Source: Sweltsa coloradensis
Lineage: Eukaryota; Arthropoda; Insecta; Plecoptera; Chloroperlidae
Length of the DNA: 64,000 nucleotides
NCBI GenBank assembly: GCA_024449915.1
Contig: JAMZAV010003229.1
Span: 1 to 64,000 of the forward strand
Direction of reading: 5' to 3'
Shown here piece after piece: positions 3,582 through 52,728 of this stretch. Each line of letters opens with the position of its first letter. Positions within the stretch are counted from its first letter, which is position 1. The notes beneath the pieces were generated by a model that was not told the DNA's origin, did no database searches, and saw only the letters and a list, made by a program, of their open reading frames with translations. Both the position numbers and the translations under genes were made by a program.

Positions 3582-5935
3582 ACTCTAAAATGGTAGCAAA
3601 AATCCTTAATAGCTATTTTGCTAATGAAGCCTCTGACTTAACAAATAACTTAGCAAATCAAGGAAATAATCCAAATCTTACTTTCATTGATTACTTGCAT
3701 AAGACACAAGAGCCCAGTAAAATCTATATATGTTTATAAGACTGATATTAATGAAATAAAAAATATTGTTGGTAAGTTAAAATCATCTTATTCTGCAGGA
3801 GTAGATGGCATATCCATTATTGTTTTAAAGAAATGTATCCATATGTTAGCTGCACCTCTATGTGACATTTTCAATACCAGTCTAAAAGATGGGGTCTTTC
3901 AACAAGCACTAAAAATATCAAAAATAATTCCCATACATATAAAAGAAGGTAAACTCCTTGCAAGTAATTATCGACCAGTATCTAATCTACCAGCTGTCCA
4001 AAAATATTGGAAAGAATTATTTAGCTATTTTGCTAATGAAGCCTCTGACTTAACAAATAACTTAGCAAATCAAGGAAATAATCCAAATCTTACTTTCATT
4101 GATTACTTGCATAAGACACAAGAGCCAAGTAAAATCTATATATATTTTTATGAGACTGATATAAATGAAATAAAAAATATTGTTGGTAAGTTAAAATCAT
4201 CTTATTCTGCAGGAGTAGATGGCATATCCATTATTGTTTTAAAGAAATGTATCCATATGTTAGCTGCACCTCTATGTGACATTTTCAATACCAGTCTAAA
4301 AGATGGAGTCTTTCAACAAGCACTAAAAATATCCAAAATAATTCCCATCCATATAAAAGAAAGTAAACTCCTTGCAAGTAATTATCGACCAGTATCTAAT
4401 CTACCAGCTGTCCAAAAATATTGGAAAGAATTATTTATAACATATTGATAAGCTTTTTAGAAAAGCACAACATTCTACAGAAAGACAAAATGGATTCAGA
4501 AAGGGAAAATCTACTAGTGATACAATTAGAAGATTTCTATTAAACGTAACTAGTGAAATGGATTAAAATATTGATACTTTGGGTATATTATGTGATCTCA
4601 CCAAAGCTTTTGACTGTGGTGATCACAATATACTCCTCACTAAATTAGAACATTATGGAGTACGTGGTGATGCTCTAAAATTATTAAAATCATACCTAAC
4701 AAACAGAGTTCAAAATGTAGAAATAAAGCAATAAAAATAGTAAAATTTCACATACCATTTCGGACTCTGAGAAAAGTATATGTGGTGTACCACAAGGGTC
4801 AATTCTTGGCCCTTTATTTTTCATTGTCTTTATTAATGATCTAACTGAAAGTATAGAAGATGCTGAACTTTTTGCTGACGATTTTTCCACAGTCAGGCTG
4901 ATAAAAGCAAAGCTCTTTGGGATAAATCAGAAGAAAGACTAAGTGATTCAAATGGGTGGTTTACAGCTAACAAGCTTAATTTAAACTAAAAAAAAAAAAA
5001 CGATATCCAATTCCACTCAATTCAGAAGATTAAATATTTAAATAAAATACCATACCTAACTAATTTTTCAGATAATTCAAATATTACACAAGTTTCATCA
5101 AATGTATTTCTTGGCTTAACAATAGACCAACATCTAACATGGCACGATCATATCAATACATTAATACCAAAACTTAATTCGTCTTGTTATGCTATATGGA
5201 CCATCAGGCAGATAAGTAACATCACCACAGCCAAAATATGCTACTATTCATTATTTGAGTCATATATTATAAGCTACGGAATTGAATTTTGGGGTATATC
5301 GACCCACATTAATAAAGTTTTTATTATACAAAAAAAGCAAATAGAGCAATTTGTTCCCTTGGTCCCACAGAACACTGTTAACCTTTTTTTATACGCCACA
5401 AAATACTTACCATTTCATGATTATACATTTTTAAATCAATATTAGTAATTTAAAAAAATATACACACCTACTCAGTAAATGCAAATGTCCATTATCATGA
5501 CACACGTAAAAAAATCACCTACAGCTAAACTCATATCACACAAAACTTGGACAAGTAAACTCGGACTACTTACATAAATCTCTTTATAACCATCTTCCAG
5601 AATCCATCAAAAACATTTCAAGCTATGACTGTTTCAAACATAAATTAAAACAAATTTTAATTCTAAAAGCCTACTATTATCTTATTGATTACTTTAATGA
5701 TACACTCACAGAAATTCCTGTTATCACTTGATGTTATTGATTGGCTATAGCCTAATATAATGAAACGAACCTTATTTTATTACTTTTCAATAATTATTAT
5801 TATTTACAATGTATTATATATTATGACAATTCCTCATTATATTAGTATTAGTAACATTTATTTGTATTTAGCTAAAGGACACATACACTAAAAATTGTGT
5901 TGTTGTTATGTACAATTTGTCCTAAAAAAAGCCTC
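3582..5935 (+). pseudogene. LINE-A reverse transcriptase and 3' end
   Basis: The RT domain is degraded. [17 protein letters not shown] (first catalytic Asp region), GVPQGSILGPLFF and LFADDF (the FADD catalytic box) follow in order between about 3950 and 4890, with stops and frameshifts between them. The C-terminal region runs to about 5730, followed by a 3' UTR to about 5935. A 411-bp segment of the RT N-terminal part is duplicated (see 3610-4436). The copy cannot encode a working enzyme. Confidence 0.85.
3610..4436 (+). repeat. 411-bp tandem duplication within LINE-A RT
   Basis: Positions 3610-4020 and 4021-4434 are near-identical direct copies. Both encode the block from YFANEASDL through DINEIKNIVGKLKSS and DGISIIVLKKC to YRPVSNL. 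Because 411 is divisible by three, the frame stays open across both copies (3687-4448). Confidence 0.95.
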
Positions 5936-6612
5936 TCTCTCGATGTTCGCAAATCATCGCTCGGCTATCGACAGTGTGCGCGACGCGTAGGCTACCGCTC
6001 TCGTCTTCCCATTTTCCTACTTCTGGATGAGGACACTACCAAGACCATAGGAGGAATAGGCATCTGAGGAAACAATCGTGGGTTTGGCAGGATCGTACAG
6101 GGCTAGGGAAGGTGCCTGGGTAAGAAGAGTTTTGATCTTCTCGAATTCTTGTTTTTGAGGTATTCCCCACGTCCAACAATTTTTTGTTGAAAGGAGGGAG
6201 CTAATTGGCTCAAGGATTTCCGCTTTCTAGGGATATATTTTCCTAGGAAGTTTACTATGCCCAAGAAGCTTTGCGCCTGTTTGACGTTAGTTGGTGGATC
6301 CACCAGGTTTACGATCGCCGCTATCTTCCGATCGTCGGCTCTAATACCATGAGCATCGATTGTGTGTCCTAGAAAGTCTACAGAGTCTACTGAATACTCC
6401 GTTTTCTGTTCATTCAGGGTTATTCATGTTAAGTTTAGCCTTTCTTACACTGCCCGTAGACGATTGTCATGTTCAAACTGGTCTTTACCCCAGACAATCA
6501 AGTCATCCATGTGCACCAGGACTCCTTTAAGTCCATGCAGTATTTGACTCATTCTTTTCTGAAAGTACTCCGGCGCTGAGGCGATACCAAAAGGCAAGCG
6601 CTTGAACCTAGC
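5936..6612 (-). pseudogene. Ty3/gypsy-type pol fragment (RT to RNase H)
   Basis: Read on the minus strand, RLPFGIASAPEYFQKRM and LVHMDDLIVWG (RT, with MDD in place of the usual YxDD) are followed by VDFLGHTIDAHGI, the linker DPPTNVKQAQSFLGIVNFLG, and RNase H motifs LALYDPAKPTIVSSDA and VAYASRTLSIAER. Stops and frame changes break it. No LTRs are present. It abuts LINE-B sharply near 6612, so it is a truncated relic. Confidence 0.9.
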
Positions 6613-7750
6613 ATAGTTGATGATCTTACCAAAGCCTTTGATTCAATTGATCACAGGACGTTTCTGTCAAAAATGGAGTACTATGGGATCAGAGGTATTG
6701 CTCAAAGTTGTCTTTCATCATACCCATCTGGACGCTCACAAGTAGTGGCTATCCGCACTGTTGACAATAATTTAACAAAAACAGTTCTCTCAAATCCTCA
6801 AAAAATAGTTAAAGGAGTCCCTCAAGGCTCGATATTAGGTCCCTTAGCTTTCCTCATTCATGTTGATGACCTGCAGCTACACCTAACCGGTGGACTTCTT
6901 ATAGAGTATGCAGATGACTTCAGTCATCTGCTAACTGCCTCCAAACACACTATATCTAGCTTTCCAATGATATAAAATCAAAATGCTGTGCAAATGTCTC
7001 AGTACAGCCAGCAAAACATTTTTTCATTATCTCTTCCCAAAACAGTATACATGAATTTTCATACTCCCCAAAATATACCCCTGTCAAGCCCTCTTATCCA
7101 AATTGGGAGTTACCACATTATTCGCTCTTATTCATTTAAACTTTTAGGATTAATCCTAACAGAGACTTTGGATTGGTCGGGTCAAACAAACATTGTTTCA
7201 TCTAAAATTCTTAGTGGGTGTTATATACTCAGGAAACTTAAAACTATAGTCCAACCTCATATTTTGATTATTACATACTTTGCATTTATCCACTCCTTCT
7301 TTTCATATGGAACACTTCTCTGGGGTGCATCGCCTCATGCAAAAAGAGTCTTCATCCTCCAGAAAAGAGCAATCAGGATAATAGCGGGAGCTTCTAGAAA
7401 GCGATCTTGTCGGGAACTCTTTCGACAATTAGAAATCCCAACACTAGCATGTGTCCTGATTCAGTCAGCATCTCTTTTTGTTTGCCTTAATACCCACATC
7501 TTCCAGCAAAACACTACTGTTCATGATCACTTTACACGTTCCAGCAATTTAGTTCACACTTCCTCTCATAATCTTTCCCTTTTCTCTAAAGGTCCATACT
7601 ACTTAGCATCAATTATTTATAATAACCTTCCGAATAAAATTCGCTTATGCCCATCTGACAATTCTTTCAAATCTAATCTTAAGTCCTTCCTGCTTAAAAA
7701 CAGTTATTACTCACTTCATGAGCTTCTATCTGACGGCTCTCCCAAATAAA
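6613..7750 (+). pseudogene. LINE-B, RT palm to C terminus
   Basis: Begins abruptly at DDLTKAFDSIDH (catalytic Asp region), then GVPQGSILGPLAF and EYADDF (YADD box) in 6673-6975. After a frame break, 6988-7749 encodes the RT thumb and C-terminal region in one open frame, including SFKLLGLILTETLDW, LWGASPHAKRVFILQKRAIRII and the usual terminal NNLPNKIRL/SFKSNLKSFLL motifs. It is 5'-truncated, lacking endonuclease and RT fingers. A CR1/Jockey-group affinity is inferred from motif style. Confidence 0.9.
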
Positions 7751-19763: not shown

Positions 19764-20030
19764 TATTCTTCCCACGCAGCACTCACATATTCCTCGAATG
19801 TCCTATGGACATTCGTGAATAAAATGTGTATATTCCTGGGATATCACGTATTTTACAATATGTATTCAAGGTATGTTCGACGAATGTGCAAATGTCCCGC
19901 TTTTGATCATACTGTGGACCACCCTGATAGATCCCACTGGATATTCTATGAATATACTGACAATATCCATGTATCGTATATGCAATTCTTGAATATAATT
20001 GAAACATCTATATGACATTCATAGGTATAT

Positions 20031-20741
20031 ATTATCTGTCAAGAAAGGCATAATCAGCTGTTTAACCGCTAGGGCACAAAACTACTGCTCGGACCCAATT
20101 AGCTTGAAAACAGAACAACAATTACTGGCAGACGTATTCACAGCTAATGGGTATCCTAAAAAGTTAACAACTGATGTTATAAACAGTCATGCCACTAAAC
20201 AAAAACGTAAAGAGGAAATACCACGCACGACAATGTCGATACAATATATTCCTGGATTTTCTGAAAAATTCCGTCGCATCACGAAAAAGTTGAATGTCGG
20301 AACTGTATTCAAATCATCACACACGTTACGTAGCATAATTTCGAAAACAAAACCCAGCGATCCAAAAGAAGAGTCAATAAATGTAATTTACACCATACCG
20401 TGTGTTTGTGAACAAGAGTACATTGGGGAAACATCAAGACCAGTAAACATCCGCATAGGTGAACATAAAAAAAAACAAAAGAAGGGAAGGCCAGGATGCC
20501 ATCAAAATTAAAAGATCATTTCGACGTGTGCAAGGAAAACATCAATTGGGAGGGGGTTAAAATAATCTTAAAAGAAGAGAATGCCGACATTAGGAAGAGA
20601 AAAGAAGCTGCAGTCATGTCATGCATTAAAAATGTAATTAGCCAGGCCACAAAAGAATTCAGCCCTATATGGCGCAATCTAGTCAGGGAAGAAGTCACTA
20701 GGGCACAACAACATGGGTGGAAGCCTCCGGAAACACAGTGA
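20031..20741 (+). pseudogene. Penelope-like RT C terminus and GIY-YIG endonuclease
   Basis: The frame opens with the RT thumb (KKGIISCLTARAQNYCSDP, then LLADVFTANGYP). It continues through a basic linker to NVIYTIPCVCEQEYIGETSR, the GIY-YIG nuclease core with the Cys residues characteristic of Penelope-like elements, and VNIRIGEHKK. A frameshift near 20495 moves the rest into another frame (PSKLKDHF to VTRAQQHG, ending 20741). GIY-YIG endonucleases cut the target to prime reverse transcription. The RT palm is missing, so this copy is inactive. Confidence 0.92.
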
Positions 20742-23286: not shown

Positions 23287-23699
23287 ATGAGAAGTAGGGG
23301 GAAAATGACAGTTCTGGGTCAGTGGGGGAGCGCGATTTAACATGGGCTCTTATGGGAGAGTCCCCCACACACATGTGGAGGAGATTTTTAATCACGATTT
23401 TTTTTAAATTTTTAATTTTTATTATGCAAATTTTAATTATGTACATTTTTAAATGGTCCATTTTTTTAATTATGATTTTTTAAATTTTTTAATTGTGAAT
23501 TGTAATTTTTTAATTTTTCACTTTTTTCAAGATGGCGGATGCTACACTAGAGTGTGACCACATTAGCCTAAGCTTAACCAATTTTTTTATTATCTTTGAT
23601 TTCAAAATGGGGAATGGACCACTTTAACCCAACTGAACCTAAGTTTTATTTAATAAATTCGATTTAATATTTCCAATTAAATAGTTTTTTGAAAAAAGT

Positions 23700-23775
23700 C
23701 GGATGAACCCGTATTCGAACCCCGGCCGGCTGCACCAAACGCCCACACGCTAACCGCTCGCCTACTAGGACACAG
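23700..23775 (-). repeat. tRNA-like block in left Polinton arm
   Basis: On the minus strand AGGCGAGCGGTTAGCGTG (A-box/D-arm like) is followed by CCGGGGTTCGAATACGGG (B-box/T-loop like) and, shortly after, a T-run that could stop RNA polymerase III. The T stem does not pair fully. The homologous block lies in the right arm at 33150-33229. Confidence 0.6.
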
Positions 23776-24081
23776 ATGATGGCATGAGTTTGTTGTGCTA
23801 TCTATATGCACGCTGTAGCATGCACGGACGCTAAGCGCGGCGCTATCTAGTAACGAATTTTGTAACTAAAAGAATCTTTACCTTTTGGCCCCAAATAGAA
23901 CGTTGTATGATGACGTCAGGCTAACCTGTTGAGACTTGTTTCAAGCTGAGGTGACGTTTCCATACGCAGACGTGACAAGACATGCATTGTGTGTGAAGAT
24001 GAAGGATAGGGAATTATGGTATAACTAGGGCAAATAATTTTAAAAGTCAAGACTTATTCATGGTTACAACAAATCTAGTAA

Positions 24082-24087
24082 TTTATT
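24082..24087 (-). terminator. PolB polyadenylation signal, left copy
   Basis: AATAAA on the minus strand about 45 bp after the PolB stop codon. The same word follows the right copy at 32842-32847. Confidence 0.6.
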
Positions 24088-24131
24088 AAACAAATCACAT
24101 AAGTACACGTAACCACAATAATATATACATT

Positions 24132-27100
24132 TTAAGATACAGTTTTCTTCTTCATCATTTCCTTAATCCTAATATGTCCATATGCAAGTGTTTGAACACC
24201 ATCTCCTAATAAATATCGTTTATCATCAGCAGGTGACAAAGCAATCTTTCTCTGCTTGATGGTGTACACTTCATGTTTATATTGCCTAATAGTAAACATT
24301 TCCTCACTTATTATTACACTGTTTAATAAACATTTCTTATAATGATCGTGGCGTATTTTCTTTTTAATTGTTTGTCTCACCACACCCTTTGCAACTTTCT
24401 TTTCTTCCCCGCTGGCATTCAATAGTGAATACATTTTTGGCCGCAAACCGACAAACTCTTTTATCAAACTCCCTCCCATTTCATCCTTCATTTTACCCAA
24501 ACATTTTTTATTCGTGTTGTCAAATAAAACATGATTTTGTGGATAATTTGAAGTGTCAAACAGATTTGCATGTTCTGCAACATCGCAATACACGTCTTGA
24601 GTTTTTATTTCATAACATAAAGAATCAGTATCGGTGAAAAGAAGACTTGCATCTTGCCCATACTTCGAATTTATGAACGAATAATGAAAGTCATACATGA
24701 AAGTTTTGCTTAACTCTAAAATAGAAAAGCCCACATATATTGGTCTGTTTAACAAGAGTGTTTTCTTTATTGATTTAACTGCAACTAGATTATTTGCAAA
24801 TATGGTGAACCCCTCGAATGCTGGCGATGCAATCAATTTCTGTGCCTTCTTTTCAGTAGTAACTAAATCAACATTAACTCTCTTCCTTAGACACTCCAGG
24901 GACTTGCCGTAAATTGCATTGTTCATTAATTTGTAGTAATTTTTGCCAAATTCATTTGTTGCGTGTTTTCTCTTTTCGGTATTTAAGTCAATAAACGGTT
25001 TCAACCAATTACTCTGTGTGAACTCAACCACTCTATGTATTTTTGTCAGCTTCATTCCATATCCAATATACTGCTTTAGATTTCTATAATGGATCACGTA
25101 TTTTTCTTTATTTTGCAAATTTGGTACCAGTTTTGTAATTTTACCAGTAGTTGTAATATTCAGTTTTGAATTTAAATGTTGCGAAAACGGAGATAATAAT
25201 TCACCTTCGATTTCCATCCGTTCTGGTGCAAGGGGATAGCAGTTATGCATTTGATGCAATTTTTCAGGATACTCTAAATCCACTTCAAGAATATAACCCT
25301 TTTCACTTTCGACATCTACCTTTTCTACATCGAGAAGTACGATTTCGTTTTCGTCCAACCAACGAAAATCGCTGATTGGGAGTTTTTCAATCATAGAAGT
25401 TCCATACAAATTATTGCAATCCCAGTACATAATGTATTTACTCTCCTCGTGTTCGTTATAATCCTCCATGTACTTGTTGTTTGCAACAGAATGTCTTTTG
25501 GATATCATTGACACCCCACCGCGTATACCACTCTCAATGAAAATATGCATATCGACATCGGTTAATAGTTCAAGTTTCACACCAGTCATTTTTAGACATG
25601 CCTGCCATGCGAAACCCGGAGCAGTATACAAGTGAGCAGGATCTATTTCATAGTCTTTTAAAGCTAATGTCCTGAAGTTTTCGAAAACGTCGGCCAATAA
25701 CAAAACATCAGTCTGTACGTACAAGTCTTGATATTCACCAATGCTTTTAATTTCAAATGCATCCCATACTCTTTGGGCATGCTCATAGTCCTCAGCTGTT
25801 ATAGTGCCTTGTGCCAAACTGCTGTAAAATGCTTCTATTGGTGGTAAACTAGTTTCATCCATTTTTGTACTGCAATTCATATACTCATATGGAAACACAC
25901 CTTTTCTCAAAAGCAAAGGCATCCTAGCATCATTGAAGATTTGTTTCATAATAACAAAATGTTCATTATTACCAGACTCCTTCAGATTTTCCACTTATTG
26001 CTCTAATGAAGCATTCAGGAATTGTAAACTATCAATAAACTGCAACTTTCCAATAGAAAATGATATGTATTTTTCCATATTGTTTGGTATGCAGGTTATT
26101 TTTTTATTTTCAATTTTCCCCATCCCTTGCATAATCAAATGAGAATCATAATTTCGTAGATTATGTAAAATAACAGGAACTTTGCTAGTAAATTTGTAAT
26201 TTAAATTACATGAGTTATGCGCGGCACCTCTAAATGTTCCGGTAATATGACAGTGATCCCTCACTCGCTCATTATCCAAAGACTTTTTGCAAATATGGCA
26301 TTGCTTTGATGCATGAAACATTGTCTCCTCATCCAAACTTAACTTCATTGGCACAACACATTTTTTAATGTCACTTAATCTTTCTTCTTCTTTTAACATA
26401 CAATCTAAAAATGTATCAACAACATTTTTTCCTCGGTACACGACAGGTTCTTTTACACATTTTCCATTAGAATCAACAACCACATATGCAAACCCAGATG
26501 GTACATGTTGAGCAAGTTCCGTTGTATGTGAAGTATTGGGATCTTTTTCACACCCTTCAACTGGTTTGATATAGCTCTCAAAATCTGCATAAATGACATT
26601 CGGCACTTTTAATGCAAGTTGATGATTTTTAAATTCCATCCATTTATCCTCTTCTTTAGGCATGACAATTTTTTGTGGCTCGTTTCTAGAGCACAATGAT
26701 TCATGGTTAACAAGTAAGAGTTTTGTTGTAAAACGATGTAAACAGTAATGACAGTAAAACTTCTCACCATTGTGCTTGCTTAGGGAACTCATCAACCGAT
26801 TGAAGTTTTTAATGAGGCAATAATGTTTTTTATCACCCACAGTTATGTAAAGTAAATCCACATGTCTTGCACAGCTTTGTTTTGTAATACGCAGTGGGAA
26901 AACTTCTTCTTCATACCCATATACGTTTACCGAGATGTTATTTTGTTGCTCAAATTTACCAATATGTTTGACTGAAACTGGATAATCAATCCCATTCATG
27001 TTAAGTTCATTTTCCCATTCAACATATTTTTTTACGCGTTTTCCACTATGACTGGCTGGATGAATTGCAGCTAAAACACACCATAGAAAGCAACGTTCAT

Positions 27101-27899
27101 CTTCATTTTGAATGTTTATTATTGCTTTTTTGTTTCTTAGTTCAATAGGTAGCTCAATGTAACTCGACGCTGCAAGCGGAGCATATTTACCGACTTTTAG
27201 TTCCAGATATTCCACTTTGTCTTCATTCCACCCACTTCCTTCACAGTGGAACTCCCAACTTCGTTTTGTTAATAATTCCATCACCTCGTTCACTTGTTGC
27301 TCAATCTCATGTTCACCTAACAGTACACTACACTTACTTCTAAAACAGGGTGTTGAAATTACAGTATTACCCTCACCATCATCACGAGTAAATCTCACTA
27401 GTAACGCAACATACCACTTAACACTTTTCATTTCACGAAGTTCTTCAGATAATTGTCGTTTAATAGTTTCGGTCAGACTGTCTTTGAATGATAAATGATT
27501 CATCGTATTGTCATTGTTTTTAAATTTATAACTCTTTACACTACTATTCAATGAACTATTAAATTCGCAAGGGTCTTTACACACATTGTTCTTTTCAATC
27601 ACTTCCTGATCTGCTGCTTCGATACCAACTGGAGTTTTCTTGCAAGGTGTTTTCATGTGCCTCTTTAAAGCATCTTGACGCGAAAATGTCTTGAAACAGG
27701 TTCGACAGCAAATTTCAGACGTTTTATGAATCTTCATATGACGTGCTAAGTGATCAGCTCGCTTAAATGTAGAATGGCAAATGCCACAACTTTGCAAATA
27801 GGGTGAAGCTGAATGAACATTTTGACGATGTCGATTAAGATTTCTCTTTTGTGTGAACACTTTATCACAGTTGATACATTCAAATCTGTCTGTCGCCAT
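24132..27899 (-). pseudogene. PolB: Protein-primed DNA polymerase B, left copy (one stop codon)
   Basis: Family-B polymerase that copies linear element DNA from a protein primer. Counting from an ATG at 27932, which lies inside the intron, there are C2H2-type fingers at residues 19-40 and 49-69, a C2HC finger at 76-97, a conserved block near 275-292 (QNEDERCFLWCVLAAIHP), a fourth finger (394-414), Exo I YADFES (Asp450, Glu452), a Cys/His HNH-like module (545-575) and Exo II NLRNYD. Codon 646 is TAA. The frame continues for 620 residues with Exo III YVQTD, motif A WDCNNLYG, motif B KLMNNAIYG, motif C FTDTDS and KMY. The chosen start is the ATG at 27899, just after the splice acceptor. The right copy has a sense codon (TTA) at the stop, so the nonsense change is recent. 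All catalytic motifs are present. Confidence 0.95.
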
Positions 27900-27910
27900 T
27901 GCAAATGGAA

Positions 27911-28087
27911 CTGTAATAAAAAATATATGCAAATTAATATGTTTATAACGTAACTGTTAGCAAAATGTACATATTATGTTGATAATTAATTTAGAAAATT
28001 TTAAATACACATGTTATTTAAATTAAGTACATAAAAAACAAATGAAGTAGAAGTGAATTCGCAAAATAAAAACACACAAACTCTTAC
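27911..28087 (-). other. 5' leader intron of left PolB
   Basis: On the minus strand GTAAGAG begins at 28087 and a pyrimidine-rich TTTTTTATTACAG ends at 27911, 12 nt before the ATG at 27899. The right copy keeps both sites (28867-29039, 173 bp). Conservation of donor and acceptor supports real splicing. Confidence 0.65.
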
Positions 28088-28274
28088 TTTAACACTTGTC
28101 CTGGTAAGTATAATTATAATATATACGTACTCATAAGGTTGAAATATTAGAAACAAAACCTAACACTTGCTACTTTGCACACGACCTTCACTCTTTGAAC
28201 ACTCAGAGACGAATGAAAAGAGTAAAACATCCCCGCCTTTTATACCTTTTTTTTTGCTGCTTTGCGCATGCGCA
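28088..28274 (-). promoter_or_regulatory. PolB promoter and non-coding first exon (left copy)
   Basis: Minus strand: TGCGCATGCGCA (28263-28274, the NRF-1-type palindrome), then TATAAAA (28238-28244), then about 120 bp that would form exon 1 before the GTAAGAG donor. The start site is expected near 28210. One short upstream ATG frame lies in the exon. This segment is in the unshared centre, so the right copy lacks it. Confidence 0.6.
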
Positions 28275-28775
28275 TTGCTAATTTATTAATTTTCAAACGA
28301 TGCATGTAAAATTCACTTTTGCTACACAATCATAATTACGCTTCACAAAACATGACACAGCAAAAATAATTATATGATACATTTGTTAATATATTCCAAT
28401 TATTTAAAACAACAAAACGAAATGTGAGTTATAATTATTAAAATATTATTATTATAGTTAAATTTGGCATGTATATTCATTATACTATAAAAATATAGTA
28501 AACACTAATACTTATCAAGGCAGGCGCATGTTTTCTTTACCGTAACCTAGGAGTGTACATTGGAGTGATGATGTTTGATGATTTTATTTCTAAGTGTTTT
28601 GCTCATGTGAAGTAATTCTAATAGAATGCAACACAAAACATTCAATATCAATTAATATCAATCAATCAATAGGTAGCCTACAACAATTGTAACTGTGCAA
28701 GTAGAATTTTAAATCACTCTTCATTTCATTAAATAATTTACGAAGTTAATTGAGCTTTCCCGAAGACAAAGGCTT
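28275..28775. other. Unshared centre of the Polinton palindrome
   Basis: AT-rich, without ORFs or recognised motifs. A polymerase, integrase or capsid fragment was looked for by eye and not seen. Confidence 0.5.
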
Positions 28776-28980
28776 GTCGATAACTAATTTAGAAAGTGGT
28801 AAATATGTATTTAATTTGAATTAAGCACATAAAACAAAATACGTAGTGGAAGTAACAACAAAACAAGTAAGAGTTTGTTTGTATTTATTTTGCGGCTTCA
28901 CTTCTACTTCATTTGTTTTTATGTATTTAATTTAAATGACATGTGTATTTGAAATTTTCTAAATTAATTATCAACATATG
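28776..28980. repeat. Local hairpin at the palindrome centre
   Basis: 28776-28853 is the imperfect inverse of 28901-28980 (right-copy intron) and matches, in the same orientation, part of the left-copy intron at about 27977-28060. Three copies of the segment therefore exist, and the middle one makes a hairpin with the right one. Confidence 0.75.
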
Positions 28981-29039
28981 CACATTTTATTAACAGTAAC
29001 GTTATTAACATACTAATTTGTATATATTTTTTATTACAG
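28867..29039 (+). other. 5' leader intron of right PolB
   Basis: GTAAGAG donor at 28867 and TTTTTTATTACAG acceptor ending 29039, ten bases before the ATG at 29050. Sequence upstream of the donor differs from the left copy and has no TATA box. Confidence 0.6.
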
Positions 29040-29049
29040 TTCATTTGCA

Positions 29050-32000
29050 ATGGCGGCAGACAGATTTGAATGTATCAACTGTGATAAAGTGTTCACACAA
29101 AAGAGAAATCTTAATCGACATCGTCAAAATGTTCATTCAACTTCACCCTATTTGCTAAGTTGTGGCATTTGCGATTCAACATTTAAGCGAGCTGATCATT
29201 TAGCACGTCATATGAAGATTCATGATACGTCTGAAATTTGCTGTCAAACCTGTTTCAAGACATTTTCGCGTCAAGATGCTTTAAAGAGGCACATGAAAAC
29301 ACCTTGCAAGAAAACTCCAGTTGGTATCGAAGCAGCAGATCGGGAAGTGATTGAAAAGAACAATGTGTGTAAAGACCCTTGCGAATTTAAAAGTTCATTG
29401 AATAGTAGTGTAAAGAGTTATAAATTTAAAAACAATGACAATACGATGAATCATTTATCATTCAAAGACAGTCTGACCGAAACCATTAAACGCCAATTAT
29501 CTGAAGAACTTCGTGAAATGAAAAGTGTTAAGTGGTATGTTGCGTTACTAGTGAGATTTACTCGTGATGATAGTGAGGGTAATACTGTAATTTCAACACC
29601 CTGTTTTAGAAGTAAGTGTGATGTACTGTTAGGTGAACATGAGATTGAGCAACAAGTGAACGAGGTGATGGAATTATTAACAAAACGAAGTTGGGAGTTC
29701 CACTGTGAAGGAAGTGGGTGGAATGAAGACAAAGTGGAATATCTGGAACTAAAAGTCGGTAAATATGCTCCGCTTGCAGCTTCGAGTTACATTGAGCTAC
29801 CTATTGAACTAAGAAACAAAAAAGCGATAATAAACATTCAAAATGAAGATGAACGTTGCTTTCTATGGTGTGTTTTAGCTGCAATTCACCCAGCCAGTCA
29901 TAGTGGAAAACGCGTAAAAAAATATGTTGAATGGGAAAATGAACTTAACATGAATGGGATTGATTATCCAGTTTCAGTCAAACATATTGGTAATTTGAGC
30001 AACAAAATAACATCTCGGTAAACGTATATGGGTATGAAGAAGAAGTTTTCCCACTCGTATTACAAAACAAAGCTGTGCAAGACATGTTGATTTACTTTAC
30101 ATAACTGAGGGCGATAAAAAACATTATTGCCTCATTAAAAACTTCAATCGGTTGATGAGTTCCCTAAGCAAGCACAATGGTGAGAAGTTTTACTGTCATT
30201 ACTGTTTACATCGTTTTACAACAAAACTCTTACTTGTTAACCATGAATCATTGTGCTCTAGAAACGAGCCACAAAAAATTGTCATGCCTAAAGAAGAGGA
30301 TAAATGGATGGAATTTGAAGGGTAAAAGCCGAATGTCATTTATGCAGATTTTGAGAGCTATATCAAACCAGTTGAAGGGTGTGAAAAAGATCCCAATACT
30401 TCACATACAACGGAACTTGCTCAACATGTACCATCTGGGTTTGCATATGTGGTTGTTGATTCTAATGGAAAATGTGTAAAAGAACCTGTCGTGTACCGAG
30501 GAGAAAATGTTGTTGATACATTTTTAGATTGTATGTTAAAAGAAGAAGAAAGATTAAGTGGCATTAAAAAATGTGTTGTGCCAATGAAGTTAAGTTTGGA
30601 TGAGGAGACAATGTTTCATGCATCAAAGCAATGTCATATTTGCAAAAAGTCTTTGGATAATGAGCGAGTGAGGGATCACTGTCATATTACCGGAACATTT
30701 AGAGGTGCCGCGCATAACTCCTGTAACTTAAATTACAAATTTACTAGCAAAATTCCTGTTATTTTACATAATCTACGAAATTATGATTCTCATTTGATTA
30801 TGCAAGGGATGGGGAAAATTGGAAATAAAAAAATAACATGCATACCTAACAATATGGAAAAGTACATATCATTTTCTATTGGCAACTTGCAGTTTATTGA
30901 TAGTTTACAGTTCCTGAATGCTTCATTAGAGCAATTAGTGGGAAATCTGAAGGAGTCTGGTAATAATGAACATTTTGTTATTATGAAACAAATCTTCAAT
31001 GATGCTAGGATGCCTTTGCTTTTGAGAAAAGGTGTGTTTCCATATGAGTATATGAATAGTAGTACAAAAATGTATGAAACTAGTTTACCACCAATAGAAG
31101 CATTTTACAGCAGTTTGGCACAAGGCACTATAACAGCTGAGGACTATGAGCATGCCCAAAGAGTATGGGATGCATTTGAAATTAAAAGCATTGGTGAATA
31201 TCAAGACTTGTACGTACAGACTGATGTTTTGTTATTGGCCGATGTTTTCGAAAACTTCAGGACATTAGCTTTAAAAGACTATGAAATAGATCCTGCTCAC
31301 TTGTATACTGCTCCGGGTTTCGCATGGCAGGCATGTCTAAAAATGACTGGTGTGAAACTTGAACTATTAACCGATGTCGATATGCATATTTTCATTGAGA
31401 GTGGTATACGCGGTGGGGTGTCAATGATATCCAAAAGGCACTCTGTTGCAAACAACAAGTACATGGAGGATTATGACGAACACGAGGAGAGTAAATACAT
31501 TATGTACTGGGATTGCAATAATTTGTATGGAACCTCTATGATTGAAAAACTCCCAATCAGCGATTTTCGTTGGTTGGACGAAAACGAAATCGTACTTCTC
31601 GATGTAGAAAAGGTAGATGTCGAAAGTGAAAAGGGTTATATTCTTGAAGTGGATTTAGAGTATCCTGAAAAATTGCATCAAATGCATAACTGCTATCCCC
31701 TTGCACCAGAACGGATGGAAATCGAAGGTGAATTATTATCTCCGTTTTCGCAACATTTAAATTCAAAACTGAATATTACAACTACTGGTAAAATTACAAA
31801 ACTAGTACCAAATTTGCAAAATAAAGAAAAGTACGTGATCCATTATAGAAATCTAAAGCAGTATATTGGATATGGAATGAAGCTGACAAAAATACATAGA
31901 GTGGTTGAGTTCACACAGAGTAATTGGTTGAAACCGTTTATTGACATTAAATACCGAAAGAGAAACATGCAACATTGAATTTGGCAAAAATTACTACAAA

Positions 32001-32800
32001 TTAATGAACCAATGCAATTTACGGCAAGTCCCTGGAGTGTCTAAGGAAGAGAGTTAATGTTGATTTAGTTACTACTGAAAAGAAGGCACAGAAATTGATT
32101 GCATCGCCAGCATTCGAGGGGTTCACCATATTTGCAAATAATCTAGTTGCCAGTTAATCAATAAAGAAAACGCTCTTGTTAAACAGGCCAATATATGTCG
32201 GCTTTTCTATTTTAGAGTTAAGCAAAACTTTCATGTATGACTTTCATTATTCGTTCATAAATCCGAAGTATGGGCAAGATGCAAGTCTCCTTTTCACCGA
32301 TACTGATTCTTTATGTTATGAAATAAAAACTCAAGACGTGTATTGTGATGTTGCAGAACATGCAAATCTGTTTGACACTTCAAATTATCCACAAAATCAT
32401 GTTTTATTTGACAACAACGAATAAAAAATGTTTGGGTAAAATGAAGGATGAAATGGGAGGGAGTTTGATAAAAGAGTTTGTCGGTTTGCGGCCAAAAATG
32501 TATTCACTATTGAATGCTAGCGGGGAGGAAAAGAAAGTTGCAAAGGGTGTGGTGAGACAAACAATTAAAAAGAAAATACGCCACGATCATTATAAGAAAT
32601 GTTTATTAAACAGTGTAATAATAAGTGAGGAAATGTTTACTATTAGACAATATAAACATGAAGTGTACACCATCAAGCAGAGAAAGATTGCTTTGTCACC
32701 TGCTGATGATAAACGATATTTATTAGACGATGGTGTTCAAACACTTGCATATGGACATATTAGGATTAAGGAAATGATGAAGAAGAAAACTGTATCTTAA
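29050..32800 (+). pseudogene. PolB: Protein-primed DNA polymerase B, right copy (frameshifted)
   Basis: Starts MAADRFEC and follows the left copy. The finger domain and the conserved block are open to 30021, where loss of one A shifts the frame. A short deletion near 30320 removes codons before Exo I. The segment 30449-31978 is open and carries the HNH-like module, Exo II, Exo III and motif A (WDCNNLYG). Further shifts follow near 31965, 32010 and 32420, with a stop near 32156. Motif C (FTDTDS) and KMY remain readable in later frames. At the position of the left copy's stop this copy reads Leu. It has at least four disabling changes and lacks the left copy's promoter. Confidence 0.95.
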
Positions 32801-33149
32801 AATGTAAAAATTGCTGTTACGTGTACTTATGTGATTTGTTTAATAAATTACTAGATTTGTTGTAACCATGAATAAGTCTTGACTTTAAAATTATTTGCCC
32901 TAGTTATACCATAATTCCCTATCCTTCATCTTCACACACAATGCATGTCTTGTCACGTCTACGTATGGAAACGTCACCTCATCTTGAAGCAAGTCTCAAC
33001 AGGTTTGCCTGACGTCATCATACAACGTTCTATTTGGCGCCAAAAGGTAAAGATTCTTTTAGTTACAAAATTTGCTACTAGATAGCAGCGCGCGTAGCGT
33101 CCGTGCATGCTGCAGCGTGTATATAGATAGCACAATAAACTCATGTCTT

Positions 33150-33229
33150 CATCTGTGTTCTGACAAGCGAGTGGTTAGCGTGTGGGAGTTTGGTGCAGCC
33201 GGCCGGGGTTCGAATACGGGTTCATCCGA
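33150..33229 (+). repeat. tRNA-like block in right Polinton arm
   Basis: Inverse counterpart of 23700-23775: AAGCGAGTGGTTAGCGTG, then CCGGGGTTCGAATACGGG. The following T-run seen in the left arm is broken here. Confidence 0.6.
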
Positions 33230-33794
33230 CATTATTTCAAAAAACTATTTAATTGGAAATATTACATCGAATTTATTAATTGTTGTTGGTTTATGTCACG
33301 TAGAAAAAACTAAGGTTCAGCTAGGTTAAAGTGTTCCATTCCCCATTTTGAAATCAAAGATAATTTAAAAAATTGGTTAAGCTTAGGTTAAAGTGGCCAC
33401 ACTCTAGTGTAGCATCCGCCATCTTGAAAAAGTGAATAATTAAAAATTAAAAAATTACAATTCACAATTAAAAATTTAAAAATTCATAATTTAAAAAATC
33501 ATCATTAAAAAATGGTCCATTAAAAAATTTACATAATTAAAATTTGCATAATTAAAAAATTAATAATTAAAAAAATTAAAAATTAAAAATTCGTAATTAA
33601 AAATCTCCTCCACATGTGTGTGGGGGACTCTCCCATAAGAGCCCATGTTAAATCGCGCTCCTCCACTGCCCAGAACTCTCATTTTCCCCCTACTATGAGA
33701 GTATAATGACACCTTTTCTCGTTCCACACAAAGAAGAAAATTTTTAAATGTCCGCCATTTGTTTACGTATCGCACTTTCCCGCCTAACTCTGCT

Positions 33795-46697: not shown

Positions 46698-47270
46698 TGT
46701 TCGAGCCGAGGTGCTCAACTCCGAGAATAATGGACTGTATATATATTTTGATCTGAACTTACCCCGAATCTTGACGTAGGCTGAAGGAGGCAGTGCAGAG
46801 GTAAGTACGATGGGCGAGATGTTAAGCCCACCGCGAGAGAGAACAGGGATAAAGAAACTCGAGTTTGGAAGATGAGTAGGAAGTTAGAGAATGCCTGGAA
46901 GGCAAGTCGAACCAAGGACTGCAGCTCGGAATCCCGTCGTTGTATTCCAAGACGGACGCGGCAGGCGGCTACGCACTTGAATACGTACAGTGAGTGCAAT
47001 GTCCGGAGAACGGACACGTGCGTTGCGAGTTGGCGAGCGAGAGAATTTGAAACGAAAACGAACTTTGCACTTCATCGAGTGAAGGCGAGAGGCGAACTGC
47101 ATTGACAACATACTTGCATAAAGTCGAACGCGAGAAAACCTGGAAATGACGTCTGATAGGCGAAATTCAACAGGTGATAACAATATGTGCACTTATGAAT
47201 ACGAAACAAGAAATACCAATAGCTAAGAGAAAATATACTACCACAATAGCGCCGGGAAATGGCGCGAACA
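46698..47270 (-). repeat. BEL 3' LTR
   Basis: 573 bp, matching 52729-53298. A purine-leaning tract (AGGTGGGCGG on the minus strand) lies just outside at 47271-47285 and may be the polypurine tract. Confidence 0.9.
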
Positions 47271-47370
47271 TAACCGCCCACCTAAATGGATATTTTAGAT
47301 AGGACCAAGAGAAATAACTAAACTACAACTATAAGACCGAGCCAAAACGATAACTAAGAAGGAGGGAGGA

Positions 47371-50300
47371 TCACCACTTGTTCACCGGACGGGTAAACAC
47401 TCCTTTGGGAGTCCGAACGGACGCCACTCTGATGACGTTGTCTTTGCCAGGGCACACTTGTACCACCCGCCCAATAGGCCAAGACAAGGATTTGGTAGCG
47501 GGTTCCAACACGAAGACAAAGTCACCGACCTTGGGTTCGGGCACGCGCGCACCCACTTCCCACACTGCATCTGCTGTGCAGATCCCTCAAGGACCAACGT
47601 GTCCAAAAGCTTTGATGCAGTTGACGGACTTGAACCCACGAGAGAGGTGAGAGGCATTCTCGACGACAGCAACTTCGGGAGGTGCGAGAAGCGAGGTGCC
47701 GATCAACAAATGGGCGGGAGAGAGGTAATCTGGGCCATCCAGGGGTCGAAACGAAGTGGCACAAAGGGGACGACTATTCAACACGGTTTTCGATGCGTGA
47801 AAACAGGGGGGAGTACTCCTCGAAATTTAAAGGGGCGGAGTCCTTAATTAGTCATGCAGGAGTAACTTGGCGGATTTTACCCCGGCTTCCAAAGTCCACC
47901 AAAATTAGGAGCGTAGGGGGGTTGAAATCCCACCTAACATTACGTAGTGGCAAGCTTTTTCCGCGATGGCGGTCTCAGCTGCCGTGAGAGAATCGTAGAT
48001 CTCGGGGAGCGAGCAGCACACCTACGTAGTTACGGCCACAGTGGGAGTAAATGTGAGCTGGGAGCCCCCGCCGGGCGAGAAACCGATCAAGACAGCCAGG
48101 AAAGCTTCAGTGGACAGTCAGAGACCAGCTCAGGTGCACAGCTTTGGGGGCCATGCAGACGAAGAGACATAAGTAGCCTTTGACGATGGAGGCATTACGA
48201 CGAGGACTCGTCTTCCACTGAGAATGGGCCGCGTAGTCTGTGCCCACGTGGAGGAACGCACGCGAAGGCTTAACGCGAGGTTCAGGCAGATTGGCCATAA
48301 TTGGCTGATTGGGGCTTGGCGCGGAAATTTGAAACAGGTAAGCAGCGACGAATGCGTTGCCGTAACAACCAGCAGAGAGTATCCAATACATCTGAATGAG
48401 AGCTTGCACAGGGGCGGGGCAGAGTGCAAGGAGGAGAGATGAAGGCATCACACAGAGCGGGGACAATGCGCTTCTTGGGAAGCAAGGGGGGATGACGAGC
48501 TTCTTCGGGGAGAAGAATAATAAAGCCTCCCGGGCCCCCCTGACAAACCCACGGGAGTCAATGAAGGGCTTGAGGGTGGCGATGCGGGGGTCACGAACGA
48601 GTGTTTGGGCCAGTTGCTTGAGCTCATCAGCGAAGTACTGCTGCTGAGTGATGCGCACGAACAGGCGCATCGCGTCCTAAAGATCGGACGGGAGCAGGGG
48701 AAACCAGAGGGGGGTGCAAGGTTCTTCAAACGAGCAAGCAAGATGCGGGAAAAGCGTACCACGTGCCGAACACGCGCTTGGCTTTAAAGGGCCCGAGGAG
48801 AAACTCTGCAGTTTGACAAGCAGAGGATCAATTTACGGGATCATGAGTTATCAGCACGCTTTGGGAGACGCTTTCAGCTCGGGCAAGTCGTGGCTGGGTT
48901 CAACCAAAGGGACCGAGCGAGACCACGTGGAGGGGGAGAACGCATGAAGGGGGAACCAGAGAACCATATGGGGTGGTTCAACAGGTCCAGGGGGAGCCCC
49001 CCGAGAGGCGCAATCGGCAGGGTTCTCTTCAGAACTAACATGAGCCCAATTCGGGGGAGAAGGGGTCTCGAGTATTTCGACTCCCCGATTGGCGACGAAT
49101 GTCTTCAGCTGGTGCGGGGGGTACTGAGCCAAGCGAGCACGATAGTGAGTCAGTGTATAGCAACACTGTTTCTATTTTGCAAGGGGCCCTTGAGAGGGGG
49201 TAGGGTGTCTTTAAGCACCCTAGACAATAAAATGCTCTACTGAGTTCCAACTTGGCACAGTGAGCAGCTTGACGGGCGCGACCTTGCTCCTGGCTCTCAA
49301 CAATCTGACGTGAGATTGCAAAGCACGTCCTTCAACGTGCAGTAAGAGTAGCAGCATAGGCCTTCTCGGAGCGTCGCAAAACCCTACAAGCCGGTATTGG
49401 CATCGTTCATGACAAGGGGGACGCGGACATGAACATCACCCCAACTTGGGCACGGGCTTTCAGGGCAGTGACCCCAAGTCTGAGAGAGTGATTCCGAGAG
49501 TGATTCATCCCACTCCACGCGCAAGAGCCAGAGATTCTGCATGAACCTTTCATCCAGGAGACGAAAGGGGTGAGAAACCCGAGTGGGTCGAATATGCGCG
49601 CGATGTAGGAGAGTATGGACCGTTTGGTGACGCAACCTACAAAGGGCAGAGTGTGGAGCTGAAGAAATCGGAACGAGGGTCCCCACACAGACCGGAGAAT
49701 TTTCAAAGTTTGTTCGTCGTTGAGAAGACCAGGGAGTTTCTAGATGGTCCTTGGGGAGGGAGTTTAAGAGCGTCAGGAACATTGCTAGCCCACTTGCGTA
49801 GCTCGACGCCTGCACACTGAGTGAGTGACTGCAACTCAGCACGAAGCACGAGGGCTTCGTAAAGGTCACTGGCGCCTGAAACTACGTCATCGATGTAGAT
49901 GTTTGAAGTAAGGGCGCGTAAACGAGAGGAAACTTAGCACCTTCGTCCACGACCGTTTGCTGCAACCTCGTTGGGCCTGGAAGGCGAGGGAGTGAGACCG
50001 TAGGTAAATGTATTGGTTGGGTACTCAACGACAGGAGAGTAGGGCTCGGACGCCAGAATATGTGCTGAAAAGCACGATCGTCCTGGTGCACAAGGATTTA
50101 AAGGGTACATCTTCTCACGTCCGCGCACAGAGCTACAGGATAAGTGCGAAAAGTGGTTAGAACAGTGGGAAGGTCACTTTGAAGCTTAGGACCACTCAGC
50201 AGACGTGGTTGAGAGCGACTATTTTTAAATCGGGAGAGGAGGCGTTGATCCACTCGCAGTTTAGTGGTAGAGCTTGTGACCTTGTGTCACAATGATGCGG

Positions 50301-52271
50301 GATTATGTACTCCGCAGGTCGAGAGGAAGGCTGCTGTGCAGTGAACGAGCGTAATCACTCATGAACTCATGATATGAGTTCATGAAGTGGAGGATCACGC
50401 TTCAGACGGCGCTCTAAACTGACAAAAGTCTTGAGCGCAAACGTCACGATTGAAAGCCTGGCATGACGCAATCAGCTTGAATGGTAGAGCGACCGAGTAG
50501 CGGCCAGAGGGTCGCGAGAGTGAGTTTTAATGAAGTGCTCTTCAACGAGCGAATCCATTGGGTCCAGAGAGGGGGGTCGACTGACTTCTTCTGTTTCCCA
50601 GAAGAGACGGAGAGTATGTTCCAACGGGACTTGTCACAGCGAGAAATGAGTAGGATGACTCGGGTTTGCTGGGTTGAGTAGCGGGGACCGGCCCTAAGAT
50701 TACCCCACCAAAAACCGTTTTGAGTGCGGCGGGTTTGCTGCCTACGATCGGGGTGTCCGTTTTACGAGAATGTCTGAGTAGAGATCGCACCAATAAAGGA
50801 AAAATCAATGGGCCCTGGTACTTGAAGCGATCGTCAGCGAGGTCAAGGTCTGATAGCGCTCTATGACGTCAGTGGACACGGAGGATGTAGGCAAATTGCC
50901 GGGCAATAGTTGAGAGAACGTGTGCATTGACATGCTAGAGGGTTGCCCAGAGAGCCGAGAAGCTAAACTGCATTGCACATACCATGCACTCGAGTATTGT
51001 TGTCCGACACCTGACAGTTGGGCGTGGGCTGGATTGACTTTTCAAGCCCAAACGTTGCACTAACGCTTAGTGATAGCAGAGATTTGTGACCCGGAGTCAA
51101 CAACCCGCGAAAGGGTTGCATGATCCCGTGCGCGTCACTAATGATGCGCGAACGGTGCCTAGTATGAAAAGTTTGATGAGTGGGGCTCGAAGCCTGGCTT
51201 GACATGACAGAGCCTGGGGCGCTGAAAGGGCCTTGCTCGGTGACAGGAGTAATCGTCAGCGAGAGACGGAGCGGATTCAGAATGTAACATAGAATGAAAG
51301 TTTAGAGCTTTTGACACACAGAACATGATTTCGTGGAAGTGCATTGGGATCGCAGATGTGCACCCATACAATTTAAAACAGCGTTTTAATTGGCGCAGCG
51401 TGTCATAACGTTGGTCTATGGTTAAACCAAAGGAAAACATTGCACTGGTACAATGTATGAGAAGCTTACATACGGACAACGGGCACAGTTGAATGAGAGT
51501 GATTACGAGATTAATTAGTGGGTACTCGCTGCACACTGTTGTTCGGGCAGGGGACGACACTAGCAAGGTGTTTTTATTCGCTTTGAAGGGGAGAGAACTT
51601 TTGACGGTAGTAACAGAACTTTTCCCGACAGCACATAACTCCATCGTTCTAGATTTGGTCTTCGAGAAAAACGATTAGCGATTTGTTTAAACGGGAGTTT
51701 GAAATTTGATGTTTGTCTGTTTTCAAAGCCTTGCGAGATGACGCATCGAGATTACTAATGCCAAAAATAACATAAAAAATCACCTAAAACGGGAATATTC
51801 CCGAGCTTTCAGAGATTCGACCCGAGTTGCGATGTGTTTTTAGAAAAGCTTGAAGACCGTCATAGGATGACGTTTTTTAGAGGAACAAAATCTAAATCTT
51901 GTGGACATACAAACTCCCTAGTAATCGCTTGTTTTGATACGAGAGATGAGAGTGTTCAGAGCGGGAGGGTAATTTTCTTCAGTTTTTGAAACTCTGAGAT
52001 GAGGGCCACGGAGTTTCAGACAAAGAAGTTGTTAAATAGTGTAACTTTTGAACATTACTTAATGATTTATTATCATCGATCAGAGATTTGAAAAGAGAAT
52101 AAATTTGGGCCATTTGCAAATGTCTCCTTTGAACTTGGGAAGATCTATGACAGGCAATGCAAGAGATGGTTGAACTGAGGCGGACAGAGGACCCGGTTGA
52201 GTCACAACAGGGCGCTGATTTAATTTATCAACCGTATATACGAAACTTCCCAAGCAAAGAAAGCGTTTCAA
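47371..52271 (-). pseudogene. BEL/Pao gag-pol, heavily frameshifted
   Basis: Minus strand, N to C: gag DUF1759-like segment with LPKFKGDICKWPKF (52271-52080); degenerate zinc-knuckle region CFKLYGC to FHSMLH (about 51420-51300); protease end PIVGSKPAALKTVFG and ILGPV (50754-50685); RT box YIDDVVSGASD (about 49900) followed by GVELRKWASN; the Pao-specific TKRSILSYIARIFDPLGFL (49628-49560); RNase H region LKTFVANRGVEI and EENPADCASRG (49132-48851); integrase with LKPFIDSRGF and VGTDYAA (48670-48107); and the C-terminal DUF5641-like KVGDFVFV, WPIGRVVQVCPG (47565-47371). Many shifts separate these, and no primer-binding site was recognised beside the 5' LTR. Confidence 0.9.
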
Positions 52272-52728
52272 AAATGTCTTGAAATTTGTCTATTTCGATC
52301 GATTTAGCGGGAAGAACTACTTGGGTGTTGAGTTCGGCAATAGACATTTGGATTTCGCGGAAATCAATTCCCCAAATTTAACAAAATTATCAAAACGGAG
52401 CCTAATGACTCAACTTGATCGGGGTTTTTTTTCTCGAACGCATTGTACGTTCGCTGAACGGACGCGAATATAAACTCGCGTCGAGGGAAATAACTTTTTC
52501 TGCTGAGCTTGCAACTCTTCCTGATGAACGGAGATTACAAGTAGCAACCATAAGAGGAAACAACGTAAGAGACAATTACACTGAATAGCACAATCAAAAG
52601 AAACCAGAGCGAAAAATAAACACTCAAAACCGTGTGTGTATTTCGACGACCAACAAGGACTACCTTGATGAGAAAATATTTGCGAAAAATGCGGAAAAAC
52701 ACCGTAGCATCCGGCCCGGAGGGCCCTG

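Follow-up and report, generated by a model that had tools for sequence, protein, structure and literature searches.

Polintons, or Mavericks, are known as large multi-gene elements whose tips generally start with AG. Genomes that are linear inverted dimers and fold on themselves are found among the symmetric defective genomes of adenoviruses and the self-complementary genomes of parvoviruses, where they arise within a single infection or in the laboratory. In genomes, long perfect palindromes are usually unstable. Very long inverted repeats also characterize Foldback and Galileo, the complete copies of which carry a transposase of the P superfamily. In published accounts, the inverted repeats of vertebrate Mavericks measure 46-1,447 bp, with a mean of 402 (PMC8097293), those of Galileo about 300 bp to 1.2 kb, the copies with the longest repeats having no transposase ORF (PMC3573991), and the family-B DNA polymerase (PolB) of bidnaviruses is said to derive from Polintons, along with their inverted ends (PMC4061559). 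Among the open-licence PMC papers that literature searches listed, none is, by title or abstract, on a palindromic or PolB-only Polinton.

The element presented here lies in a window of 64,000 nucleotides (the whole stretch of DNA analysed) from the stonefly Sweltsa coloradensis. Its family resembles Polintons in its 6-bp target repeats, in its tips, which also start with AG, and in a PolB that, like that of C2288, an ordinary Polinton, bears C2H2 fingers at its N-terminus. Whereas in Polintons terminal inverted repeats (TIRs) of up to about 1.4 kb surround unique genes, the window element consists almost entirely of inverted repeat, has its PolB doubled, and contains no ORF of integrase, ATPase, protease or capsid type. 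It differs from the adenovirus and parvovirus dimers in that the palindrome appears to be inherited across insertions and in two subfamilies, and from Galileo, with which it shares very long inverted repeats, in that these repeats carry the gene. Bidnaviruses have capsid and helicase genes and single-stranded genomes, features of which none was seen in the window family. We consider it somewhat probable that this is a Polinton-derived family of palindromes with a PolB in each arm, which is inherited as such, whose arms are likely kept alike via a full-length hairpin, and which is likely inserted by the integrase of ordinary Polintons.

The window element spans 23293-33694 between exact 6-bp target repeats, ATGAGA. 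Both ends begin AGTAGGGGGAAAATGA, with tips of the AGTAGGGG type. Its parts are the following, C135 being a related locus.

23287..23292, no strand: left target-site repeat ATGAGA, read directly
23293..28089, plus strand: left palindrome arm, tip AGTAGGGGG outermost (blastn of arm against arm; exact tip pattern)
28090..28864, no strand: single-copy centre, 775 bp, present in both C135 halves; relative to C135, 1,923 bp are missing, with the junction near 28855-28861
28230..28275, minus strand: predicted promoter for the left-arm PolB, facing outward, a TATA-like box plus GCGCATGCGCA (sequence read)
28865..33694, minus strand: right palindrome arm, inverse of the left, tip outermost (blastn of arm against arm; exact tip pattern)
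33695..33700, no strand: right target-site repeat ATGAGA, read directly

The arms, of about 4.8 kb each, are 95.4% identical in a blastn alignment of 4,862 columns that contains 127 mismatches and 26 gap openings, and ungapped inverted blocks between them reach 1,638 nt at 98% (repeat search). The 6-bp repeats, AG termini, inverse arms of about 4.8 kb and unshared part of about 0.8 kb given by an earlier sequence-only reading are thus all confirmed, the unshared part being 775 bp. Search matches show two copies of the corresponding segment, inverted relative to each other, at other loci, and C135 has it in both arms. Central deletion of palindromes is known from other systems, and a putative deletion of this kind best accounts for the 0.8-kb asymmetry seen here, this copy being the family palindrome minus about 1.9 kb at its centre. 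The loss would have happened during or after insertion. Both halves of C135, and both of another related locus, C734, contain stretches similar to the promoter, which we presume to be one from its motifs; the central deletion would explain why the right half of the window element has no mirror copy.

Each arm holds one PolB gene, as the sequence-only reading had proposed and as reading frames in both arms confirm; both of these predicted genes are broken, the right one being split into three frames by small indels.

24132..27956, minus strand: left-arm frame, C2H2 zinc finger - endonuclease-VII-like - PolB, open except for one TAA at 25995-25997
29017..30021, plus strand: right-arm PolB, N-terminal piece with zinc fingers (reading frame)
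30326..31978, plus strand: right-arm PolB, exonuclease to motif A piece (P0002), with a predicted fold like that of phi29 DNA polymerase
32327..32800, plus strand: right-arm PolB, C-terminal piece (reading frame)

The domains of the left-arm frame are those we take it to have from a scan with familiar motifs. No other ORF of at least 120 aa lies inside the element according to the ORF list. The predicted fold of P0002 has as its nearest match (E 2e-6, TM 0.40) phi29 polymerase with terminal protein, and the nearest predicted viral folds include PolB listed as bidnavirus-like, bidensovirus, densovirus and parvovirus. A search of solved structures by sequence, with P0002 and with alignment A1, matched no polymerase. 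The window PolB is up to 57% identical to PolB-like proteins, the named ones being from animals. Seven of 27 aligned PolB sequences have a DNA_pol_B_2 domain; the window's own pieces are without it.

Third codon positions account for 0.59-0.68 of the PolB differences among the window and the related loci C135 and C2907, and for only 0.39-0.44 in comparisons with the decayed arm of C14377. Judging from these codon positions, PolB is under purifying selection between loci. This bears on a foldback-type DNA transposon that would have captured a Polinton PolB within its long inverted repeats and be moved by an unrelated transposase. The 6-bp repeats, the AG at the tips and the selection on PolB suit ends of Polinton type, and it is hard to see what such a transposon would do with PolB, so that we regard this explanation as very improbable, even though Galileo, which is foldback-like, has long inverted repeats and was first known from copies consisting of repeats only (PMC3573991).

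The earlier reading wavered between a single event and a spreading family, and suggested a search of the host genome. This search, once run, turned up a number of palindromic loci whose 6-bp repeats differ, in favour of a family, and supports the view of the element as a stripped, symmetrical Polinton derivative. Beyond the window, six PolB loci have the palindromic layout (C135, C2907, C329, C734, C9000 and C9356), four of them with exact, differing 6-bp repeats and a fifth with repeats matching at 5/6 positions. An exact pattern scan finds the AGTAGGGG-type tip at 31 genome sites, and the reversed control pattern at 0. Among 14 contigs with tip and PolB, seven are palindromic and the others single, cut or unsettled. 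In the eight two-tipped elements examined, six target repeats are exact and all different (ATGAGA, GACACT, AGTAAC, ATTGGT, CATGTT, GGCGAC), and those of C329 and C765 match at 5/6 and 4/6 positions. The arms of C135 are 97.8% alike over 5.4 kb, the remainder being self-inverted around a 122-nt loop, and those of C2907 are 97.1% alike, with a centre interrupted by LINE-like ORFs (by eye). C329, a likewise palindromic sister subfamily with a PolB 78% alike, has halves 97.7% alike over 6.1 kb and arms of about 7.7 kb. C734 and C9000 have a self-inverted central 1.5 kb (at 96.8% and 93.6%), and their coordinates place a pair of outward-facing PolB genes in each; C9356 is self-inverted at 77.5% over 5.1 kb, which is the extent of the piece, and only the 5' part of its second PolB is present.

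Long palindromes assemble poorly, single-base indels are commoner in right than in left arms, and one contig, C3292, stops 1 kb past its centre copies. All this could point to an assembly artefact, through unsplit reads or collapsed repeats. Yet the arms differ by 2-5% and end at the tips, and on different contigs different flanks are joined to matching 6-bp repeats, which makes an artefact hardly credible.

Other members fit the layout less well. In C3292, the final 1 kb past the centre copies shows no self-inversion and no likeness to the centre of C734. The central piece of C11540 is weakly self-inverted (148 columns at 82%). At C978, from a clade with PolB at 56-60%, the centre segment is found both ways round; its mirror PolB was absent at the computed position where we sought it, and we do not claim palindromy for this clade. 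Of C1271 only one arm is present, with its PolB frame open and a cut within the centre, and at C14377 a tipped left arm is followed by 4 kb without a mirror. Such one-arm loci, together with the fact that the arms within a locus are sisters, would be expected if each palindrome had formed anew, a linear genome with one PolB being copied by snap-back shortly before insertion. Against this, the centre is common to C734 and C9000 at 94.9%, and to C734 and C9356 at 71.8%, and the window and C135 share their centre flanks, whereas separate events should yield different fold points; moreover, the loci read include no monomer with two tips. We hence judge repeated formation to be quite unlikely, though less so than an artefact or a foldback transposon. 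Because centres are common to several loci, the palindrome is more readily seen as inherited, and the proposal that it had newly formed at the window locus is not favoured: the C135 centre, the C734/C9000 centre and the palindromic C329 subfamily indicate an old, inherited form. The centre might have been a degenerate tip copy marking the fold-back point, for portions of the one in C135 resemble the subterminal tip at about 71-74%. The segment concerned, however, is scattered across the genome at places without tips, so that the resemblance is no evidence, and this idea was rejected.

The arms of an inherited palindrome nevertheless resemble each other within each locus. The columns that split element from element, left from right arms, or crossed arms number 184:4:4 for window and C135, 265:1:1 for window and C2907, and 274:3:2 for C135 and C2907; in the tree, the arms of C135 pair with each other, as do those of C329, at 100/100. 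Arms within a locus being far closer than arms between loci, they must be kept alike. Homogenization is incomplete, given that third positions make up 0.54-0.58 of the arm differences within loci, above 1/3. Chromosomal palindromes are known to convert, and it is conceivable that the likeness between the arms of an inherited palindrome is due solely to chromosomal gene conversion, not to replication of the element. Identity along the window arms is indeed patchy (blastn), and uneven: it is 92.6% from tip to PolB stop and 98.0% inside the gene. The differences at the tips (7.5%) exceed those in the gene (2.0%), a pattern that chromosomal gene conversion could also give. However, many substitutions and indels are private to one arm in inserted copies, so that conversion after insertion must be slow or rare, and we hold it unlikely as the sole cause, if a little less so than formation anew at each locus.

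For an inherited palindrome homogenized during its own replication, the following course may be proposed. The type of PolB suggests that replication would be protein-primed at the tips. The strand displaced would fold back into a full-length hairpin, the end of which would be an ordinary double-stranded tip, allowing replication to restart, and mismatches between the arms would be repaired in the stem. Integrase would be supplied in trans by ordinary Polintons. Polintons with a related PolB and an integrase are present in the same genome, and C2288, with a zinc-finger PolB, an integrase with rve and chromodomain, a TIR of about 1.25 kb and no palindrome, is a candidate helper; its ATPase-like ORF scores 20.4 bits with Pox_A32, below the cut-off of 22.8, and its ends do not begin AGTAGGGG. 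A full Polinton with the same tips, which the sequence-only reading would have taken as the helper, was not found among the integrase matches listed: these include none of the 24 exact-tip contigs (window contig included). In viral contigs, P0002 as query found no relatives; the alignment as query found two loci, L025 and L026, both multi-gene and with no long palindrome in the part examined.

A family in which the palindrome is inherited and its arms are kept alike would be a natural experiment in protein-primed linear DNA replicating via a folded single strand, and the concerted pattern of the arms would make this replication model testable from the sequences of relatives alone. It would also show that a minimal Polinton derivative, reduced to polymerase and ends, has spread beside full Polintons, which bears on the transfer of modules to other viruses. 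More tentatively, the family may be a self-complementary replicon, a Polinton offshoot that kept only its polymerase, doubled head to head, in which each released strand would be its own complement, and one tip, one gene and one strand would suffice to rebuild the whole. Such units of PolB plus tip might then be portable replication modules, of the kind from which bidnaviruses could have drawn their polymerase and ends.

The element in the window is a near-complete palindrome with a family-B DNA polymerase (PolB) gene in each arm, as the sequence-only reading had described:

23293-33694, whole element, bounded by exact ATGAGA repeats
23293-28089, left arm, inverse copy of the right arm
28865-33694, right arm, inverse copy of the left arm

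The arms are 95.4% identical over 4,862 columns and are separated by 775 bp of single-copy DNA. Each contains one gene whose reading direction runs from the centre out to the tip (the conserved outer end, starting AG), with C2H2 zinc fingers, an endonuclease VII-like stretch and then the polymerase. The left-arm frame holds a single stop and the right-arm gene several small indels; all the polymerase motifs scanned for were present on the left, and motif B was not found on the right. The Pfam model DNA_pol_B_2 gave no match to the window's PolB pieces, and matches 7 of 27 aligned sequences. The longest open piece of the right-arm PolB gave a predicted structure (mean pLDDT 82) whose nearest PDB fold is phi29 DNA polymerase, with the terminal-protein complex as top entry (E 2e-6, TM 0.40). 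The viral predictions nearest to this structure are PolB proteins that carry the names of parvoviruses, densoviruses, adintoviruses and MELD viruses, bidnavirus-like ones ranking lower.

Other features of the window were recorded as follows:

404-955, 3654-7749 and 58124-59122, ORFs resembling parts of LINEs (by eye)
19999-20511, ORF resembling the GIY-YIG-type end of a Penelope-like element (by eye)
47000-53000, G+C 0.44-0.57, against roughly 0.3-0.4 in the surroundings
63123-63195, minus strand, one tRNA model match (32.4 bits) at which ARAGORN found no tRNA; perhaps a tRNA-derived SINE

Whether the element was a single event or belonged to a spreading family had been left undecided, and a search of the genome (1.45 Gb, 16,871 contigs) speaks for the family. 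The exact tip pattern occurs 31 times on 24 contigs, and a reversed control pattern not at all. Genome lists of tip-query, PolB and integrase matches score the best candidates, so that counts from them are lower bounds: at least 13 of the 24 tip contigs also carry PolB among the matches listed, a fourteenth (C14377) has a PolB arm recognised by DNA, and the other 10 showed no PolB among those matches. Eight two-tipped elements were examined, and the 6-bp target-site repeat is exact in six of them, each time with a different sequence.

Target-site repeats of the two-tipped elements (C numbers are other contigs of the same genome)
Window: ATGAGA, exact
C135: GACACT, exact
C2907: AGTAAC, at the outer tips, exact
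C734: ATTGGT, exact
C9000: CATGTT, exact
C4306: GGCGAC, exact; no PolB found
C329: agrees at 5/6
C765: agrees at 4/6

Tandemly duplicated tips were seen at both ends of C2907 (952 and 1387 in the stretch L013; 8740 and 8113 in L015), at the right end of C734 (L028, 576 and 310) and in C2544 (L017). A subterminal segment (tip query 128-285) is scattered in the genome without the remaining tip, for example on C4768, C2036 and C4548, and may be a separate repeat. C765:294257-308908 (L011, L012) is a second type of palindrome with the same tips, whose arms, about 89% alike, hold arrays of about 126-bp repeats; no PolB was found in it, and its centre has ORFs resembling gypsy pol (by eye).

Of the 14 contigs on which tip and PolB occur together, seven are palindromic (window, C135, C2907, C329, C734, C9000, C9356), and most of the well-preserved members are palindromic right to the centre. 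The halves of C135 are 97.8% identical over 5.4 kb, the remaining centre being self-inverted around a 122-nt loop. C329 is a 15.4-kb palindrome (halves 97.7%, about 70 nt separating them; PolB 78% identical). The central 1.5 kb is self-inverted end to end in C734 (96.8%) and C9000 (93.6%), and C9356 is self-inverted at 77.5% over the entire 5.1 kb covered by the stretch read. The arms of C2907 are 97.1% identical, with a middle interrupted by inserted ORFs that are LINE-like by eye. The window's apparently unshared centre is found in either half of C135, and 1,923 bp of C135, between C135:998655 and 1000579, are missing from the window copy, which is thus probably a centrally deleted member. 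For the loci read, these structural facts are firm.

The other seven do not fit, or fit less clearly. C1271 consists of a right arm alone, its PolB frame open and its left side ending within the centre palindrome. In C14377 a left arm with its tip is followed by 4 kb in which no mirror arm was seen. C3292 ends 1 kb past its centre copies, and this final 1 kb is not self-inverted and has no likeness to the C734 centre; C2432 has a centre copy at most 0.3 kb from the contig start. The centre is present in both orientations in C11540, whose central piece is only weakly self-inverted (148 columns at 82%), and, outside these 14 contigs and by coordinates only, in C6999, C7736, C6477, C4028 and C978; a direct check of C978 for a mirror PolB was negative. 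Two outward PolB matches of unlike identity were listed in C3307 (51% and 71-79%) and one in C389.

The centre of C734 is the same as that of C9000 (94.9%) and more distantly that of C9356 (71.8%), which indicates that the palindrome itself was passed from copy to copy. Yet the arms have evolved in concert. Of the seven palindromic PolB loci, three (window, C135 and C2907) have both arms aligned along their length, and arm patterns were counted in these. Columns separating elements outnumber those separating left from right by 184 to 4, 265 to 1 and 274 to 3, crossed patterns being as rare as the latter. The tree is in accord: the C135 and C329 arm pairs each received 100/100, and the C2907 pair was less clear.

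Among these three elements, 59-68% of PolB differences fall at third codon positions; the share is 63-77% in comparisons with C9356, 54-58% between the arms of one element and only 39-44% against the decayed C14377 arm. In all seven comparisons tested, three of them within and four between elements, the counts exceed one third. It follows that PolB was under selection during the spread of the family. Selection also acted while some of the differences between arms accumulated, and a living copy could therefore have had arms that were not identical. Private substitutions are more numerous in the right arm in the window (80 versus 56, p 0.05), C135 (41 versus 24, p 0.05) and, most strongly, C2907 (58 versus 14, p 2e-7), which also has 24 single-base indels on the right versus 4 on the left. 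The cause would be either decay of one arm with retention of the other, or poorer sequencing of one arm.

The proposal of a stripped Polinton derivative is borne out: by its polymerase, tips and 6-bp repeats the window element is Polinton-derived, yet by gene content and repeat structure it is no Polinton. Ordinary Polintons are present in the same genome. C2288 combines a zinc-finger PolB with an integrase (rve and chromodomain) and an ATPase-like ORF, for which Pox_A32 scores 20.4 bits, below the 22.8 cut-off; its TIRs measure about 1.25 kb, and it has no palindrome. Among the matches listed, PolB and integrase lie 3.5 to 14 kb apart on C464, C7314 and C1152, and 64 kb apart on a fifth contig, C1788, left out of the Polinton count; of the contigs listed, none of the seven whose PolB is 95% or more like C3082 (C3082, C2288, C887, C3937, C845, C15361, C1179) has an outward-facing PolB pair. 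A helper Polinton sharing the tips, as had been envisaged, was not recovered: none of the 24 tip contigs has an integrase among the integrase matches listed, and the ends of C2288 differ from the family tips. Two IMG/VR viral contigs (L025, L026) have a related PolB. In L025 there is also an integrase (relatives with rve), together with ORFs that look capsid-like and ATPase-like by eye.

Polinton-type PolB is among the protein-primed polymerases. Replication would begin at one tip and displace one strand, which in an ordinary Polinton could pair at its short ends only. In a palindromic element the displaced strand would be self-complementary throughout and would therefore fold into a half-length hairpin, whose open end would be a normal double-stranded tip. 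Copying of the hairpin would regenerate the palindrome, mismatch repair within its stem would make the arms alike, and a Polinton-type integrase, absent from the window element, would insert the linear product into the chromosome. We propose this fold-back cycle with a borrowed integrase as the best-supported and likely mechanism.
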